Shown here piece by piece: positions 6,283-21,832 of a DNA stretch of 22,204 bases. Origin of the DNA: a virus; IMG/VR virus record IMGVR_UViG_3300020469_000294, positions 1-22,204 of that record; one strand, 5' to 3'. The notes under the pieces are model-generated. The model did not search any database. It had not been told where the DNA came from and saw only the letters and a program-made list of their open reading frames with translations. Each line of letters begins with the position of its first letter. Position 1 is the first letter of the stretch. A program made the position numbers and the translations under genes.

Positions 6283-6294
6283 TTATTTAGATGG
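6283..6294 (-). promoter_or_regulatory. Candidate late promoter for the gp4-gp53 operon
   Basis: On the - strand this reads CCATCTAAATAA, and the core TCTAAATA (6291-6284) resembles the T4-like late element TATAAATA. The identical 12-mer occurs upstream of gp26 on the + strand at 7290-7301. The expected start site near 6278 gives a ~20-nt leader to the gp4 ATG at 6257. The element overlaps the start codon of the divergent gene at 6291. Confidence 0.5.
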
Positions 6295-7286
6295 TTACAC
6301 CGATAGGTTCAATTAAGAAATATTTTCAAAAAGTAGGGCCATTGCTTGCGGGCACTGATGTAGGGACATTTGATCTACAAGATCCTCAATCCCTTTTAAA
6401 TTTTGAGACGGCATTAGGAGCTCCTTCTCTATCTAATTATTTCAAAGTTTCGATGGAACTTGCTCCACAAAATGCATCTTCATCAAGGTCTCAAGGTTCG
6501 GATAGTTCACAGACATTAGATGAAATTAAGCAAGAGTCACAAGATAAAAAGGTGGCTGCAAACTTAAATCAATGGTTAACAAGTGCTGGATGTTTTGACG
6601 GTGCTTTTAAACAAAGAAGATATGAACTACTTGCAAGTGAGGCCGCATTGCCAGGCACAAATATGCAAGTTGTACAGGAAGTTGGTAGTAGACAGGGTAT
6701 AAGAGAGAGATTTGCTACACAAAGGGCATACACTGATATTGCTATCTCATTTTATGTGACACATGATTATAAAACTCTCAGATTGTTTCAAGAGTGGATG
6801 AATTATATGAATCCACTTTTCACAGGTGAGGAAGGAACAACCGCAGAAAAATCCGAAATGGGTGGATATCCTAGCTCAGATGACAGAAATGCGTTTTATA
6901 GATTTAGATATCCAAATCAGTATAAAAGAGACATTCAAATTACTAAATTTGAAAGAGATGTAAACTTTGGTAATACTGGTAGACAATTTAGGGACGGTAG
7001 AGTTGCAGAGATAAGAACACAAGGTGATGCCTCTTCTATAAATTTTCCAGTAGGTTATGGTGGTAATAATTATAAAGAAGATTATCAACCGAATGTGATA
7101 AGTTACAACTTTGTAAATGCATTTCCAATATCAATACAAGATATACAGTTGAGTTATGGCGCTGGTCAAGTTTTAAAAGTCACGGTTGATTTTTCTTACG
7201 ATAGATATTTCATAGTACAGTCAACTAAAGATAACATTGAAGCTACAAGTCCACTAGGAATAACTCCCCCAACTTTGAGTTCCTAA
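6291..7286 (+). CDS. Tail-tube-like baseplate protein, probable gp54 equivalent
   Basis: A 331-residue protein. The C-terminal half has the beta-strand pattern of the tail-tube fold: YRFRYPNQYKRDIQITKFERD, VISYNFVNAFPISIQDIQLSY and VLKVTVDFSYDRYFI, close to the gp19/gp54 strand order. The length matches T4 gp54 (about 320), the tail-tube initiator that sits above gp48, and gp48 is encoded nearby, so gp54 is the best guess; gp19-related tube protein is the alternative. The N-terminal region includes a Ser/Gln-rich linker (residues ~60-80). No Shine-Dalgarno precedes the ATG, and its first base overlaps the divergent late-promoter element. Confidence 0.6.
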   Translation: MVTPIGSIKKYFQKVGPLLAGTDVGTFDLQDPQSLLNFETALGAPSLSNYFKVSMELAPQNASSSRSQGSDSSQTLDEIKQESQDKKVAANLNQWLTSAGCFDGAFKQRRYELLASEAALPGTNMQVVQEVGSRQGIRERFATQRAYTDIAISFYVTHDYKTLRLFQEWMNYMNPLFTGEEGTTAEKSEMGGYPSSDDRNAFYRFRYPNQYKRDIQITKFERDVNFGNTGRQFRDGRVAEIRTQGDASSINFPVGYGGNNYKEDYQPNVISYNFVNAFPISIQDIQLSYGAGQVLKVTVDFSYDRYFIVQSTKDNIEATSPLGITPPTLSS

Positions 7287-7320: not shown

Positions 7321-8040
7321 ATGCCTTTACCAAAAATTACTACGGCTCAGTATGAATTGAAATTGCCTTCAACTGGAAAGACCGTAAAGTACCGACCATT
7401 TCTAGTAAGAGAAGAAAAAGTTCTCATACTCTCACTTGAAACCGAAAATCAAAAAGAAATTTCTAATGCTGTTAAACAAGTTCTCAAAGAATGTGTTTTA
7501 ACAAGAGGTGTAAAGATTGATTCTCTACCAAGTTTTGACATAGAATATTTGTTTTTGAATATTCGTGCCAAGTCTGTTGGTGAAACTATCGAACTTGTTG
7601 TTACCTGTGGCGACGATGGAGTTACAGAAGTTCCTGTGAGTGTTAACATTGATGATATTGAAGTTGTTAAATCTAAAGACCATTCAGTTGATGTTGAATT
7701 GGCAGATGGTTACACTGTTAAAATGAAATATCCTTCATTGAATCAGTTTATAGAAACTAATTTCAATCAAAAAGATGATGATGCCGTTGAAAAGTCATTT
7801 GAGATAGTAGCATCTTCTATTGATATGGTATATAATGATAAAGAGATGTTTTCAGCATCTGAATGTACTAAAAAGGAATTGAAAGAATGGGTCGAATCCT
7901 TGACATCTGAACATTTTCAAAAGATTGAGAAATTTTTTGAAACTATGCCTAAATTACAACATACGATTAAAGTTTTAAATCCCAAAACTGACAAAGAAAA
8001 TACTATAGTATTAGAGGGGCTATCGGATTTTTTCGCTTAA
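7321..8040 (+). CDS. 26: Baseplate hub/assembly protein gp26 (0-frame product)
   Basis: A 239-residue protein of the T4 gp26 baseplate family. The N-terminal signature is LPSTGKTVKYRPFLVREEKVL, then helical LKECVLTRGVKIDSLPSFDIEYLFLNIRAKSVGE, a beta pair around residues 90-140 and a C-terminal helical bundle. T4 gp26 is about 208 residues. It lies immediately upstream of a second short ORF and the tape-measure candidates, the place occupied in lambda-like phages by the gpG assembly chaperone. The last codons before TAA form a slippery sequence followed by a stable hairpin, so a fraction of ribosomes probably continue in the -1 frame to make a 304-residue fusion (see the recoding site at 8028-8071). 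Confidence 0.82.
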   Translation: MPLPKITTAQYELKLPSTGKTVKYRPFLVREEKVLILSLETENQKEISNAVKQVLKECVLTRGVKIDSLPSFDIEYLFLNIRAKSVGETIELVVTCGDDGVTEVPVSVNIDDIEVVKSKDHSVDVELADGYTVKMKYPSLNQFIETNFNQKDDDAVEKSFEIVASSIDMVYNDKEMFSASECTKKELKEWVESLTSEHFQKIEKFFETMPKLQHTIKVLNPKTDKENTIVLEGLSDFFA

Positions 8041-8071
8041 GTATGTCTCATGTAGATCTTGAGACATACTT
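8028..8071 (+). promoter_or_regulatory. Probable programmed -1 ribosomal frameshift signal
   Basis: The heptamer T TTT TTC (8028-8034) is in the correct X XXY YYZ phase for the gp26 frame (GAT TTT TTC GCT TAA). After a 4-nt spacer a perfect 12-bp stem follows: AAGTATGTCTCA (8039-8050) with TGAGACATACTT (8060-8071), loop of 9 nt. Slipping back one base leads to CGC TTA AGT ATG..., which is open and runs into the ORF at 8043-8234. The gp26 stop codon and the downstream ATG both lie in the hairpin's 5' arm or its base. All parts are directly visible; the efficiency is unknown. Confidence 0.82.
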
Positions 8072-8234
8072 CCGAATCAATTTTGCTCTCATACAATACC
8101 ATAAATATTCTTTATCAGAAATTGAGAATATGCCTCCTTGGGAAAGAGATGTCTATGTTGGTTTACTTAAATTACATATTGAAGAAGAACAACTAAAACA
8201 AAGAGCTAAAGAAGCACAAGCAAACAATGGCTAA
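8043..8234 (+). CDS. gpT-like C-terminal extension of gp26, reached by -1 frameshift
   Basis: A 63-codon ORF (start MSHVDLETYF), helical, with the motif SLSEIENMPPWERDVYVGLL and a charged tail EEEQLKQRAKEAQ. The pattern of a helix ending in a Met-Pro-x-x-Glu turn recalls the T portion of gpGT-type tail chaperones. Its ATG has no ribosome-binding site and is buried in the stem of a 12-bp hairpin, so independent initiation looks poor. The -1 frame is open back through the slippery site at the gp26 3' end, giving gp26 residues 1-238, then R-L-S, then these 63 residues. It could instead be made by reinitiation after the gp26 stop, 2 nt upstream. The 3' end overlaps the next gene by 8 bases. Confidence 0.7.
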   Translation: MSHVDLETYFRINFALIQYHKYSLSEIENMPPWERDVYVGLLKLHIEEEQLKQRAKEAQANNG

Positions 8235-9942
8235 AGGGATAATAACATCTAAATTTCTCAAACGTACTGGTACGGCAGTTGGTGGTGCGAATAAAGTTAG
8301 CAAATTTAAAAGAACCACTAGTTTATTACCCAAGGCAGGGAAGAGGATTAAGGTAAAACCAACTGGTAAAAAGGGTATTGTATCTAATGTAAAAGGTAAA
8401 GGATTATTTAAAGGTGTAGATGAAAAGATAAAACCACTGACAAAGGATACTAAGATACCTACTGGATCAAAGATCAGTAAGATTGTAAAAAATGTAGCGA
8501 ATAATATACTTCCAAACTTAAAACAAGAGGTAAGAGAGGATACAGAAAAAGTAACTGATCCCAATTCTTTATTCAATAAAATATTTTCTGGTGGACTTGG
8601 AGAGTTAGATAGATTTGGTTCTGCTCTTGATAAAATGTCAAAGAGCCAGTTACCCTTCCTAGAAAGAGCAAGTAAATTGGCTGTAGATTTTGTATCCAGT
8701 TTAGCCAGTGGTAAAAGTGGCGGTGGATTTATGAGAACTGTAGGTAATATACTAAAAATTGTTGGTGCTATTGGTGTGGCTGCATTAGCAGCACCATTTG
8801 TTGGCCCAGTTTTAGGTGCAGTCGCTACAGTTGGTGCGATTACTGGTGGAGTTGTTCTAGCTACAAAAGGAATATCTGACTTTATAAGAGGAAAGGGGGC
8901 ATTTAAGGGGAGAAAGGAGAAGAAGGAGAAGAAAAAACAGAATAAGTTTTTTGCTGCATCTCTTGACAAACTTGAAGGTATTATAACTTTCCTTGAGAAA
9001 AGACAAAAATCTAAAAAAGAAGCACGACCACCAGAAGGTAAAGAGAAAAAGGAGACCTCTGCTAAATCATTAGAAACTCCGATGGGTGATGGTGTAGAAA
9101 ATGCCACAATCGAAGTAACTGATGATGGGAAATTTATAGTTACGAGAAAACCAACCACAGTAAAAGAAGATATTACCGAGGAACAGAAACCTAAAGGATT
9201 ATTGAGAGCTATTACTGGTGTAGCAGATACTTTCACAGGTGGTATATTTGACTTTGATAAGAGAGGTGATACTAAGTTTCAAGATATGGGACAAGGAATT
9301 ACAGATCAACTTACTATGGGAACCACTGACTTTGATGGAGAGGGCAGAAGTCCTGTGCAAAATGTGGTACAGAATATTTTTGGTCTTGTTAAAAAGGGAT
9401 TAAAAGGAGATAAGGGAGAAAAAGGTAGTGTAGGACTTGGTGGTGACAGAGGTTTAACAGGTAAGGATATTGTCTCTAGAGTAATGAGTATAAAGGATCA
9501 GGCAACTGAGTTTACTCTTAACTTACCAGCAACAAAATTTGCTAAAAAAATACTTGATACTGGAGTAAACGCTATATTGGGTGGCCCTGTAAAGTCAGGA
9601 GAACTAGAAAGTGTAGATGATTTACAACAACTTCAACTAAATGTGCCTTCAGAGGTAACTACTTCTAAGGTAAATCAGGATCTTACTCAATTAAATGAAA
9701 GACAGTCAATAGCTACTGATGTTTCCCAAACTGCTAAAAAGAATGGTGGTCAACCAATGGTTATCCCTTTAGACCTAGGAGGGGCAGGCAAAGAAGCAGA
9801 AAAAAAACCAAAACAAAATGTACTACAGATGAATGAAGCTGGTAATCAAATTCCAATACTCACTGCGGTTGATACTAAAAACATGCATATTCCTAGTACC
9901 TATGCAGTATTGAACATCATAGACGCTAACAATGGAATATAA
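8227..9942 (+). CDS. Large tail protein, tape-measure/gp29 candidate with collagen-like segment
   Basis: A 571-residue, Lys-rich protein. The N-terminal ~110 residues are strongly basic. A long Gly/Ala hydrophobic stretch at about residues 178-220 (VGAIGVAALAAPFVGPVLGA, then VATVGAITGGVVLATKG) could be two membrane-inserting helices, as in tape-measure proteins. A charged KKEKKKQ region follows, and then eight uninterrupted G-x-y triplets at residues 391-414. The position directly after the gp26 frameshift pair is where tape-measure genes sit in lambda-like phages, and the length is close to T4 gp29 (590). That is the basis for the candidate call; I see no sequence signature that proves it. 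It could instead be a cyanophage-specific hub or virion protein. Confidence 0.5.
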   Translation: MAKGIITSKFLKRTGTAVGGANKVSKFKRTTSLLPKAGKRIKVKPTGKKGIVSNVKGKGLFKGVDEKIKPLTKDTKIPTGSKISKIVKNVANNILPNLKQEVREDTEKVTDPNSLFNKIFSGGLGELDRFGSALDKMSKSQLPFLERASKLAVDFVSSLASGKSGGGFMRTVGNILKIVGAIGVAALAAPFVGPVLGAVATVGAITGGVVLATKGISDFIRGKGAFKGRKEKKEKKKQNKFFAASLDKLEGIITFLEKRQKSKKEARPPEGKEKKETSAKSLETPMGDGVENATIEVTDDGKFIVTRKPTTVKEDITEEQKPKGLLRAITGVADTFTGGIFDFDKRGDTKFQDMGQGITDQLTMGTTDFDGEGRSPVQNVVQNIFGLVKKGLKGDKGEKGSVGLGGDRGLTGKDIVSRVMSIKDQATEFTLNLPATKFAKKILDTGVNAILGGPVKSGELESVDDLQQLQLNVPSEVTTSKVNQDLTQLNERQSIATDVSQTAKKNGGQPMVIPLDLGGAGKEAEKKPKQNVLQMNEAGNQIPILTAVDTKNMHIPSTYAVLNIIDANNGI

Positions 9943-11594
9943 TGGTTAGAAACACATCTGTATCAAATTTAATAGTTCAACAGAAGACTCAGAAGTCTGT
10001 AGATCAGTCTAACTCTAAGATAGAGAGATTTACAGGTTTCTTAGATAGAATCATGCTCAAAAATGATCCGCCATCGGACTCTAAAATTGATAAGGCAGAG
10101 AAATTTGCTAAAGATAGAGGTAAAGGTAAGAAAGATCCAAATAACAGTTTCATGAAAGATATGGTATTATCTGGTAGTGTTTTCATGTTACCTTTCCTTC
10201 TTGCAAAGGGATCTAAAACAGATGAAGTAGATCCTGAGACAGAGTTGAAGCAGAGATTTGGTGGTGACGAACAATTGATGAAAGAACAATTAAAGAAGGA
10301 AGATGATCAAAGAAAAGAAGGATTGAATACTGTTGAGAGCTCTGTTAAGAAAGATGAAAAGGTGGCTTTACAAAAGCGTGGTGATGTTGATAAAATAAAA
10401 GAACCCGAAGTTACTGATCCAGAAGTAACTGAACCAGAACCTAAAATTCCACAAAAGGGCGAAAAACAGGATCAAGAAGAGAAAGAAGAGGAGAAGAAAG
10501 AGGAGAAAAAGAAAAAGGAAATTGAAAAGACTAATGAACAACGATTTAAAGAATTAGTTGATCGGTTTGAAAAACTATCTAAAGGTAACGTATTCAGTGG
10601 ACTTAATAAGGATGTGATCAAGGGAGCTCTCAATAAAGGTAAAGAGGCAATAGGTAACGTGTTTAACTTTCTCACAGGAATACAACCAGCTGCTGCAGCT
10701 GATATGAGTAATCAAGTGCAAACTTTATCAAATGTAAAGGAGGTATTTCTACATGACAATACTACTATAAAAAATAAAACTATTCTGAAAAATAATGAGG
10801 TAAAACCACAAGAGGATGTAATGGGAAAACCTGTAAAAAAAGAACCTGTATATAATCAAGATCTTCCTATAGAGGAGAGGAAAAAGATTATATATGAGAT
10901 GGCTGTAAAGGCTGGTGCTAAGTTTCCAGAAGCAGTTGTCGCACAGTATCAACTAGAAACCACATCAGGAAAAGATAATATTGGAAAAAACAATTTCTTT
11001 AACTTGAAGGCAGTAGAGGGAATGGACTATACTGAGAAAGTAGTTGATGAATATGAGGTAGATGGAAAGAAAATTCAAGAGAAGTCTAAATTTATTAATT
11101 TTGATACTGCTCAAAAGGCAATTGACTATCTCGTAAAATTATGGTATAAAGATTTTAATGGATATACTGGTGTAGAAACAGGATCTGAAAACGCTGGACA
11201 GGTAGCGGAAAAATTACAAGCAGAGACCTTTGCAACAGATCCCAACTATGCCAATAAGTTAAAGAGAGTGATGAAGGAGAACAAACCTCTAATTGATAAA
11301 ATTAAAAAAGGTGAAGCAACCCCAGAAGAGATCAGTAAATTAGAACTTAAAACTGGATTCAATGTTATGGAAGAATTGGCCTCAGTAGAGGAATATAATG
11401 ATGAAATGTTTGGTGATGGTGGGGGAGATATCACTTTTGTTGTTATGAATGATGACCCTGCTAGGACTGCCACAGGAGGAACACCTTCATCTCCTTCAGT
11501 TAGAAGGATACCTGGCCAAATACAATATGTACCAGTCTTTGATAAATTAGCTGTGGTTCAACTTCATCAAATTCACGCTCTAGGTGCTTCATAA
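9942..11594 (+). CDS. Tail protein with FlgJ-like glucosaminidase (GH73) domain
   Basis: A 550-residue protein joined to its neighbours by TAATG overlaps. Residues ~1-100 are polar with one hydrophobic segment (VLSGSVFMLPFLLAKG). Residues ~150-195 form a Glu/Lys-rich linker with runs of EEK and KKE. Residues ~310-455 look like a FlgJ/LytF glucosaminidase: AVVAQYQLETTSGK with E339 at the usual catalytic position (LES in FlgJ), KNNFFNLKA, FINFDTAQKAIDYLVKLWY and ETFATDPNYANKLKRVM, where the TDPxYAxKL block is very characteristic. It should cleave peptidoglycan glycan strands during DNA entry. The C-terminal ~95 residues are unassigned. Location next to the hub genes implies a virion-associated enzyme carried in the tail. 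Confidence 0.72.
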   Translation: MVRNTSVSNLIVQQKTQKSVDQSNSKIERFTGFLDRIMLKNDPPSDSKIDKAEKFAKDRGKGKKDPNNSFMKDMVLSGSVFMLPFLLAKGSKTDEVDPETELKQRFGGDEQLMKEQLKKEDDQRKEGLNTVESSVKKDEKVALQKRGDVDKIKEPEVTDPEVTEPEPKIPQKGEKQDQEEKEEEKKEEKKKKEIEKTNEQRFKELVDRFEKLSKGNVFSGLNKDVIKGALNKGKEAIGNVFNFLTGIQPAAAADMSNQVQTLSNVKEVFLHDNTTIKNKTILKNNEVKPQEDVMGKPVKKEPVYNQDLPIEERKKIIYEMAVKAGAKFPEAVVAQYQLETTSGKDNIGKNNFFNLKAVEGMDYTEKVVDEYEVDGKKIQEKSKFINFDTAQKAIDYLVKLWYKDFNGYTGVETGSENAGQVAEKLQAETFATDPNYANKLKRVMKENKPLIDKIKKGEATPEEISKLELKTGFNVMEELASVEEYNDEMFGDGGGDITFVVMNDDPARTATGGTPSSPSVRRIPGQIQYVPVFDKLAVVQLHQIHALGAS

Positions 11595-20749: not shown

Positions 20750-21311
20750 AGATCATATATTTGAGTACGATTTGCTATCTCATCAGGAATGTGATGAGAT
20801 AGTGTCTCATTTGGATTCTCATGAATGGGATGACTTCATGTGGTATCAGGGTAATGAACATGTTGATCTTGATAAAGATTCAAAGATGAAGTCAACTGTA
20901 AATTGCCCAGAGGCGGTATCCATGATACAACCACATATAAATGAGGAGTTGCATCATGCCTTTCATGAAAAATATAATTATTATAGTGTTGGATCTGGGG
21001 GCGGTGGTTCATTCTGGGAAGCTAGCTCAGGTATAAAATTTAATAAGTATGATGTTGGTGATTATCTTAGTCCTCACTACGATCACATTCATTCTCTCTT
21101 TCAAGGACAATTTAGAGGGATACCAGTTACCAGTGTGGTAGGTGTATTGAATGATGACTTTGAAGGCGGTGATTTTATATTCTGGGAAGAACACACTGTC
21201 AATATAAAGAAGGGAAGTGTGTTAGTATTTCCAGCACTGTATTTGTTTCCACATGAAGTAACGCCAGTAACAAAAGGGATCAGATATTCTTGGATACAAT
21301 GGATTGTATAG
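20724..21311 (+). CDS. 2OG-Fe(II) oxygenase, prolyl-4-hydroxylase-like
   Basis: A 195-residue protein with an intact prolyl-4-hydroxylase-type active site: H118 and D120 in GDYLSPHYDH, distal H177 in LFPHEVTPV and R187 in GIRYSW, the arginine that salt-bridges 2-oxoglutarate. The surrounding strands (TSVVGVLNDDFEGGDFIFWE, KKGSVLVFPA) fit the double-stranded beta-helix. It should hydroxylate a peptide or small molecule with Fe(II), O2 and 2-oxoglutarate; the target is unknown. Many T4-like cyanophages carry such enzymes. The start overlaps the preceding gene. The stop at 21311 is just ahead of the tmRNA acceptor piece. Confidence 0.85.
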   Translation: MPLRYPNLKDHIFEYDLLSHQECDEIVSHLDSHEWDDFMWYQGNEHVDLDKDSKMKSTVNCPEAVSMIQPHINEELHHAFHEKYNYYSVGSGGGGSFWEASSGIKFNKYDVGDYLSPHYDHIHSLFQGQFRGIPVTSVVGVLNDDFEGGDFIFWEEHTVNIKKGSVLVFPALYLFPHEVTPVTKGIRYSWIQWIV

Positions 21312-21324
21312 TCCTGATGTATGA

Positions 21325-21622
21325 CTCAAAAAGACATGTAGGTGGTGTGATCGACATTCTGGACAGGGGTTCGACTCCCCTCATCTCCACCAAGGGGATG
21401 CAATGGCTTTCGACAGGGTATACGGAGCATGACTGAAAACCTGCTCGGAGAGCAAACCACAGATGCAAAATCATCTGACACTGCTGCGAACAACATCGTA
21501 GCGTTCTCTCGTATTCTTACAAGAGAATTTGCCCGCACTGACGAACTCGTCACTGCTTAAGGGGCAATCGGGGATTGGTCACTCCTTGTTAACCAAGTGA
21601 TCGTAGGGGGCCTTGCCCCCTT
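21325..21622 (+). ncRNA. ssrA: Circularly permuted two-piece tmRNA
   Basis: The order of the two halves is swapped. First comes the acceptor piece: T-arm AGGGG-TTCGACT-CCCCT (21365-21381), then CATCTCC-ACCA ending at 21392. After one base the coding piece begins at 21394 with GGGGATG, which pairs over 7 bp with CATCTCC to rebuild the acceptor stem, followed by the tmRNA D-loop GGCTTTCGACAGGG. P2 is supported by CAGGGT (21413-21418) with ATTCTG (21356-21361), and GCATG (21427-21431) with CATGT (21335-21339). A tag frame beginning ANNIVAFSR follows. After it, GGGGCAA can pair with TTGCCCC and GGTCACT with AGTGATC, like the pseudoknots. Outer ends are approximate. tmRNA rescues stalled ribosomes and tags their products. 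Confidence 0.85.
21486..21560 (+). other. tmRNA tag reading frame (24 codons plus TAA)
   Basis: Reads from the likely resume codon GCG: ANNIVAFSR, then ILTREFAR, ending TDELVTA and TAA. The opening matches the ANNIV/ANKIV-F-SR core of cyanobacterial tags. It is longer than the ~16-residue cyanobacterial tags and ends LVTA instead of the usual VAA or LAA degron end. The choice of GCG as resume codon is inferred by analogy; the GCT before it is the alternative. A 6-bp inverted repeat TTCTCT/AGAGAA (21504-21527) lies inside the frame. Confidence 0.68.
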
Positions 21623-21623
21623 T
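21605..21623 (+). terminator. Hairpin ending the tmRNA transcript
   Basis: A 7-bp GC-rich stem (AGGGGGC, 21605-21611, with GCCCCCT, 21615-21621) around a CTT loop, followed by only a short T-run (TTTC). It could serve as an intrinsic terminator or processing hairpin. Its 3' arm can alternatively pair with GGGGCAA at 21561-21567, so the two structures are mutually exclusive. Confidence 0.5.
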
Positions 21624-21643
21624 CATATATAAAATAAAACTTT

Positions 21644-21832
21644 ATGCGTTTACAGTTTTGGTATTCTAAGGGTGTAAAGCAGTGGCATTGGACACTACAC
21701 ACTCGACATTACGCCCCTAAAGGGGAAAAATATTATCACACTTCTGGATCAGGAACTGATGTAAGAGAGGTGATGGATAGGGTTGCAACAGAAGTTGAAC
21801 AGTTAGTAGAAGATAAAAATAAAGATGTTTGA
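21644..21832 (+). CDS. Small hypothetical protein
   Basis: A 62-residue protein, aromatic and His-rich at the N-terminus (LQFWYSKGVKQWHWTLHTRHY), with a C-terminal acidic helix (REVMDRVATEVEQLVEDKNKD). No family is recognised. The upstream sequence CATATATAAAATAAAAC contains an imperfect late-promoter-like TATAAAATA (21628-21636), and no Shine-Dalgarno is visible. Its 3' end overlaps the next gene by 8 bases, which supports both being real. Confidence 0.5.
   Translation: MRLQFWYSKGVKQWHWTLHTRHYAPKGEKYYHTSGSGTDVREVMDRVATEVEQLVEDKNKDV

Follow-up and report, generated by a model that had tools for sequence, protein, structure and literature searches.

A probable frameshift signal at the 3′ end of gp26

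Are gp26 and the short open reading frame (ORF) behind it two genes in T4-like phages, or a single gene read in two frames? We examined this question in IMGVR_UViG_3300020469_000294, a 22-kb uncultivated viral record whose 22,204 bases are called the window here, and whose closest GenBank relatives are T4-like cyanophages (Kyanoviridae), with S-SSM7 at 71% gp26 identity. The original prediction, made from this sequence, was a programmed -1 frameshift fusing gp26 to the following ORF (ORF2). Conservation among relatives and nucleotide-level selection on the signals support it, and on these comparative grounds we hold it highly probable that gp26 and ORF2 form a single gene expressed through programmed -1 ribosomal frameshifting.

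Both parts belong by profile match to the T4 gp26/gp51 family, gp26 through PF12322 (E=1.6e-73) and phrog_150 (E=2.1e-79), and ORF2 through phrog_634 (Table 1). The last codons of gp26 read GAT(8026) TTT(8029) TTC(8032) GCT(8035) TAA(8038), with the slippery heptamer T_TTT_TTC in the correct 0-frame phase, as predicted; its position needs a small correction, since the slip takes place on the third- and second-last sense codons and the site had been placed two codons before the stop. The remaining layout had been read correctly: a 4-nt spacer (8035-8038) leads to a perfect 12-bp hairpin, the -1 frame is open through the 63 codons of ORF2, the ATG of ORF2 at 8043 lies inside the 5′ arm of the stem, and a slip at 8034 gives a fusion of 304 residues. 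The hairpin loop has 9 nt (between 8050 and 8060), and the open stretch of the -1 frame begins 46 nt ahead of the gp26 stop and reaches 8231. The locus has the in-phase X_XXY_YYZ heptamer and the overlapping open -1 frame of a -1 frameshift cassette. Among the 6,932 in-frame positions of the main genes in the window there are 45 heptamers of this type, of which the one at 8028-8034 is the sole in-phase T_TTT_TTC and the sole one lying 18 codons or fewer from a stop.

Conservation and selection at the slip site

We gathered 141 gp26 loci from IMG/VR and GenBank, a few of them cut by a contig end, and looked for relatives in which the heptamer was missing or the -1 frame closed. An in-phase T_TTT_TT(C/T) occurs in 138 of the loci; in 136 of these it stands exactly 10 nt ahead of the stop, and every heptamer-bearing locus has an open -1 frame of 54-65 codons. 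The signal was found in cyanophages, methylophage Melnitz, Sinorhizobium phiM12, Agrobacterium Atu_ph04, Stenotrophomonas Moby, Cronobacter S13, Aeromonas AS-zj and Vibrio KVP40. Of the three loci without a heptamer, two belong to Ackermannviridae-like vibriophages and the third to a Klebsiella phage whose genes are arranged divergently, as in T4. An extension in the +1 frame was considered and rejected: among 17 diverged loci compared, 16 had a -1 extension that was much the longer of the two, and locus L054 also has a 27-codon +1 extension.

Selection on single bases was measured in 37 representative lineages with less than 70% amino acid (aa) identity; these share ancestry and the P values treat them as independent, so that the evidence looks somewhat stronger than it is, which counts against our case. 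The residue preceding the Phe-Phe pair of the slip site varies (Ser in 22 lineages, Asp in 10, Asn in 2, Ala in 2 and Thr in 1), and the third base of its codon is T in 37/37 (log10 P = -10.4 from the own codon usage). Likewise, the first Phe is encoded by TTT in all 37 lineages (log10 P = -8.2). The entropy of the wobble bases is 1.5-1.9 bits at the three positions ahead of the slip site and falls to 0 within it, and none of the 32 other Phe-Phe pairs of the same genes carries a slippery heptamer. Judged from these patterns, together with those of the flanking elements described below, the slip-site and stimulator signals are under nucleotide-level selection.

These data also bear on transcriptional slippage, by which the frame would change on the T run of the message and not on the ribosome. 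One extra U in the run would give the same fusion, and a few diverged lineages have 7-8 T. However, in most lineages the run has exactly six T and then a C, the wobble T stands in heptamer register, and the stimulators under selection are of a translational type (GAGG at a distance of 10 nt and, in the window, a 3′ stem after a 4-nt spacer), so we regard a transcriptional origin of the frame change as most improbable.

Putative stimulatory elements on both sides of the heptamer

The hairpin is the only perfect one of at least 12 bp (loop 3-15) in the 22,204 bases, and mononucleotide shuffles produced none. The local fold at the slip site has a z of -4.1 against dinucleotide shuffles. Across the 37 lineages, folding downstream of the slip site was stronger than after synonymous recoding of the -1 frame (mean z -1.58; p<0.05 in 15/37; Fisher P 5e-14). 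For covariation we used 51 distinct relatives with a window-type stem, in which 87% of cells pair, a percentage inflated by the partial selection of this set for having the stem. Both sides were altered in 22 cells, and the covariation score was 0.157, compared with at most 0.053 in slid controls, measures that the same selection possibly favoured. Covariation and the excess over synonymous shuffles thus both point to a 3′ stimulatory structure. Other lineages carry different stems; that of S-PM2, for instance, has about 14 bp, and P-HM1 has GCCCTC/GAGGGC. No intrinsic terminator was found, the stem has no T-run after it, and no Rfam family matches the slip site.

A Shine-Dalgarno-like (SD-like) GAGG ends 10 nt before the heptamer and may act as a 5′ stimulator. 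An anti-SD tetramer stands 8-12 nt upstream of the heptamer in 33 of the 37 diverged lineages, compared with 5% at control sites, a figure partly confounded by conservation of the encoded Glu-Gly. Codon choice at this point is biased: GAG is used for 22 of 29 Glu codons (32% expected, P=1.3e-6), and the Leu codon preceding Glu also prefers a final G (14/25 compared with 29%, P=0.004). In Escherichia coli dnaX, the frameshift cassette consists of an SD-like element about 10 nt upstream, a slippery heptamer and a downstream stem-loop. The gp26 site has the same three-part layout, but the dnaX heptamer is A_AAA_AAG and its frameshift product is shortened, whereas here the product is extended.

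ORF2 as a probable extension of gp26

In 12 of the 37 lineages, the first 8 codons of ORF2 contain no ATG, GTG or TTG (one further lineage has only TTG), yet heptamer, open frame and conserved residues are all retained in these 12; fusion is therefore the one way we can see for them to make the conserved domain. The residues following the slip in the long product of the window are RLSMSHVDLETYF... The first of them is Arg in 31/37 lineages, the last residue of the 0-frame product varies, and ahead of the annotated ORF2 start the -1 frame has conserved residues (Arg, Leu/Ile). At the annotated start position itself Met (18) and Leu (17) are interchangeable. Comparison shows the signal, its conservation and the fusion, and ORF2 is probably not an independent gene.

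An alternative would be that ORF2 is a gene of its own, whose translation starts by termination-reinitiation at its ATG, 2 nt past the gp26 stop, with the heptamer and stem incidental or merely tuning reinitiation. An ATG does occur within the first 8 codons in 24/37 lineages, and many GenBank phage records annotate ORF2 as its own gene. The start-less lineages, the conserved -1 residues ahead of the ATG, the alternation of Met and Leu, the fixed wobble bases of the slip site and the fused form encoded by T4 (see below) all speak against it, and we give reinitiation very little credence. ORF2 has no ribosome site, as had been noted, and this carries little weight, as several neighbouring genes, gp26 included, also lack a clear Shine-Dalgarno sequence.

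Other observations weigh against frameshifting itself. The case is a comparative one, and no ribosome-profiling study of a cyanophage was found in the literature searched; the downstream structure is weak in about one third of the lineages (e.g. L033, L060, L052); conserved Glu-Gly residues account for part of the GAGG signal; and the two Ackermannviridae-like vibriophages have no heptamer and show a TAATG overlap. In these two (L053 and L055), TAATG joins the gp26 stop to the ORF2 start at ~2214-2223 of the locus, and the heptamer position reads A_CTT_TTC or A_CTT_TTT. They may use reinitiation or a different slip.

With frameshifting as the favoured mechanism, most ribosomes would read gp26 through to the TAA and make the 239-aa protein. 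A minority would pause at T_TTT_TTC, flanked by the upstream GAGG and the downstream stem-loop; after slipping by one base into the -1 frame, they would produce a 304-aa protein with an additional helical domain, the so-called cyanophage gp51. We infer the efficiency of this step, as well as the chaperone action discussed below.

Comparison with T4 and with known recoded loci

Tail chaperone frameshifting has been described as conserved in long-tailed phages 'except T4' (Atkins et al. 2016, PMC5009743), whereas the signal reported here is spread over a wider T4-like group. In T4, genes 26 and 51 are separate and divergently oriented; here there is one frameshifted locus. The window gp26 is the homologue of T4 gp26, and T4 gp51 matches the frameshift fusion over its full length: its 249 aa align with columns 13-280 of the 282 of phrog_150 (E=2.6e-84), a profile that beyond column 239 corresponds to the ORF2 domain, and its C-terminus also matches phrog_634. 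Since T4 gp51 matches the gp26 profile end to end as well as the ORF2 family, T4 encodes the long form as a gene of its own; with both forms made from two genes, frameshifting is not needed there. 'Some T4-like phages' reportedly use two genes instead of frameshifting (Vladimirov, Gautam and Davidson, 2022, Virology 566:9, as paraphrased in PRFect). The simplest scenario suggested by these data is that gene duplication replaced frameshifting in T4, a direction that we infer, and the pair 26/51 would then have arisen by duplication in place of a recoding event. From the sequences compared, it is very likely that a lambda-type frameshift operates in a phage group whose best-known member lacks it. 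Taken as a whole, a broader scenario is a little less likely than not; in it, frameshifting would be ancestral across T4-related phages and use a previously undescribed, dnaX-like three-part signal with a repeatedly rebuilt stem, T4 being the exception through duplication into divergent genes.

Two earlier statements can be reread accordingly. Cyanophage gp51 was found to be only ~20% the length of other gp51 proteins, and gp51 was reported missing from Aeromonas phage Aeh1 (PMC3037559); both follow from the domain being a -1 extension of gp26. Aeh1, examined separately from the 141 loci, has the same T_TTT_TTC signal, and its 'missing' gp51 is an unannotated -1 extension after the heptamer (1495-1674 of locus L144). 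ORF2-type extensions are also left unannotated in the GenBank records of ACG-2014d, ACG-2014i, Cronobacter S13 and AS-zj.

The locus resembles lambda gpG/gpGT (Xu, Hendrix & Duda 2004; review PMC5009743) in its short product with a rare -1 fusion near the 3′ end, in its location between a tail-tube-like gene and a presumed tape-measure gene, and in the small domain gained by the long form. It differs in its heptamer, U_UUU_UUC with a 3′ stem and an SD-like element, and no sequence homology to that system was detected. In phage Adele and related loci of Vandenendeviridae and Andersonviridae, the short chaperone gene likewise has a poly-T slip site near its 3′ terminus, with a -1 frame that is always open and usually unannotated, but these loci belong to other phage families and use a GTTTTT slip motif (PMC12846349). 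According to the same paper, which paraphrases Vladimirov et al., TAC-N genes of T4-like phages have similar slip signals of the poly-T kind. The idea of a recoding system missed in T4-like phages thus stands as regards annotation, with 0 of the 23 GenBank regions inspected containing a joined coding sequence, and loses part of its novelty to the T4-like work published in 2022. Frameshifting in T4-like phages being partly known since then, the three-part signal and the annotation corrections are possibly the new elements.

Probable tail-assembly function and gene neighbourhood

Homology, gene order and a weak HK97 fold match indicate that gp26 and the fusion are probably a tail-assembly chaperone pair of the G/GT type. 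The two forms would act as short and long chaperones, as lambda gpG and gpGT do, the shared part coating the tape measure and the extension recruiting tail-tube subunits. The AlphaFold model of gp26 is confident (pLDDT 87.6), and in a fold search of the PDB the HK97 tail assembly chaperone 2ob9 was by far the most probable match (0.60). T4 gp51 as an in-frame fusion and the tail-tube-like gene upstream point the same way, so the earlier assignment of gp26 as G-like and of the fusion as GT-like is likely, short of proof.

Several results tell against this assignment. The 2ob9 match is weak (E=2.0, rmsd 2.9, 61 columns); fold matches of ORF2, a small helical domain, to proteins labelled tail-assembly chaperone all have E>1; and the downstream ORF, predicted to be the tape-measure gene, has no convincing family or tape-measure profile match in Pfam or phrog, leaving its identity to position. 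A sequence search for a solved-structure homologue of gp26 gave chance-level matches only, and Pfam and NCBIfam searches with ORF2 found no credible match, its phrog_634 match being confined to columns 60-119 of 121. Frameshifting could be real and its products be baseplate-hub parts or catalysts. Historically, T4 gp26 has been annotated as a subunit of the hub or a chaperone of its assembly, and T4 gp51 as an essential protein absent from the particle (PMC3004832). We consider such a role unlikely and favour the chaperone pair.

Outside the window, the tape-measure assignment has a weak phrog_167 match in S-T4 (E=0.012) and a tape-measure note in phiM12. The gene adjoining ORF2 differs greatly in length among relatives, which suggests splits or fusions of a tape-measure/lysin protein. 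Two ORFs downstream of the ORF2 stop, at 9942-11594 (+), lies a 550-aa protein with a glucosaminidase domain.

Table 1. Coordinates of the features at the gp26 locus in the window
Feature	Position	Strand	Basis or remark
Tail-tube-like protein, upstream of gp26	6291..7286	+	phrog_45 E=1.1e-35; Pfam Phage_TTP_2 E=2.3e-14
gp26 homologue	7321..8040	+	239 aa; short product (G-like / TAC-N)
GAGG, SD-like, putative 5′ stimulator	8014..8017	+	ends 10 nt before heptamer
Slippery heptamer T_TTT_TTC	8028..8034	+	0-frame phase correct; kept in relatives, wobble base invariant
-1 frame extension	8034..8234	+	66 codons + stop, giving the 304-aa long product (GT-like / TAC-NC)
TAA stop of short product	8038..8040	+	codon reading of gp26 frame
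5′ arm of 3′ stimulatory hairpin	8039..8050	+	perfect 12-bp stem; covariation; synonymous-shuffle z = -3.35 in window
ORF2, usually annotated 'gp51 / baseplate hub assembly catalyst'	8043..8234	+	63 codons; phrog_634 E=7.2e-25
3′ arm of 3′ stimulatory hairpin	8060..8071	+	covariation and synonymous-shuffle excess
571-aa ORF, candidate tape-measure protein by position only	8227..9942	+	hydrophobic segment at about residues 175-200, Lys/Gly-rich

Other features of the window

Elsewhere in the window we found a permuted two-piece tmRNA gene of cyanobacterial type at 21300-21651 (+), identified with Rfam (RF01851, 102 bits; RF04321, 76 bits) and ARAGORN; tmRNAs of this two-piece kind are already known from marine phages, Melnitz being one (PMC9004378). 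Finally, the ORFs 266-949 and 852-1187 overlap by 98 nt (852-949, +) in different frames, and one of their starts is probably misplaced.
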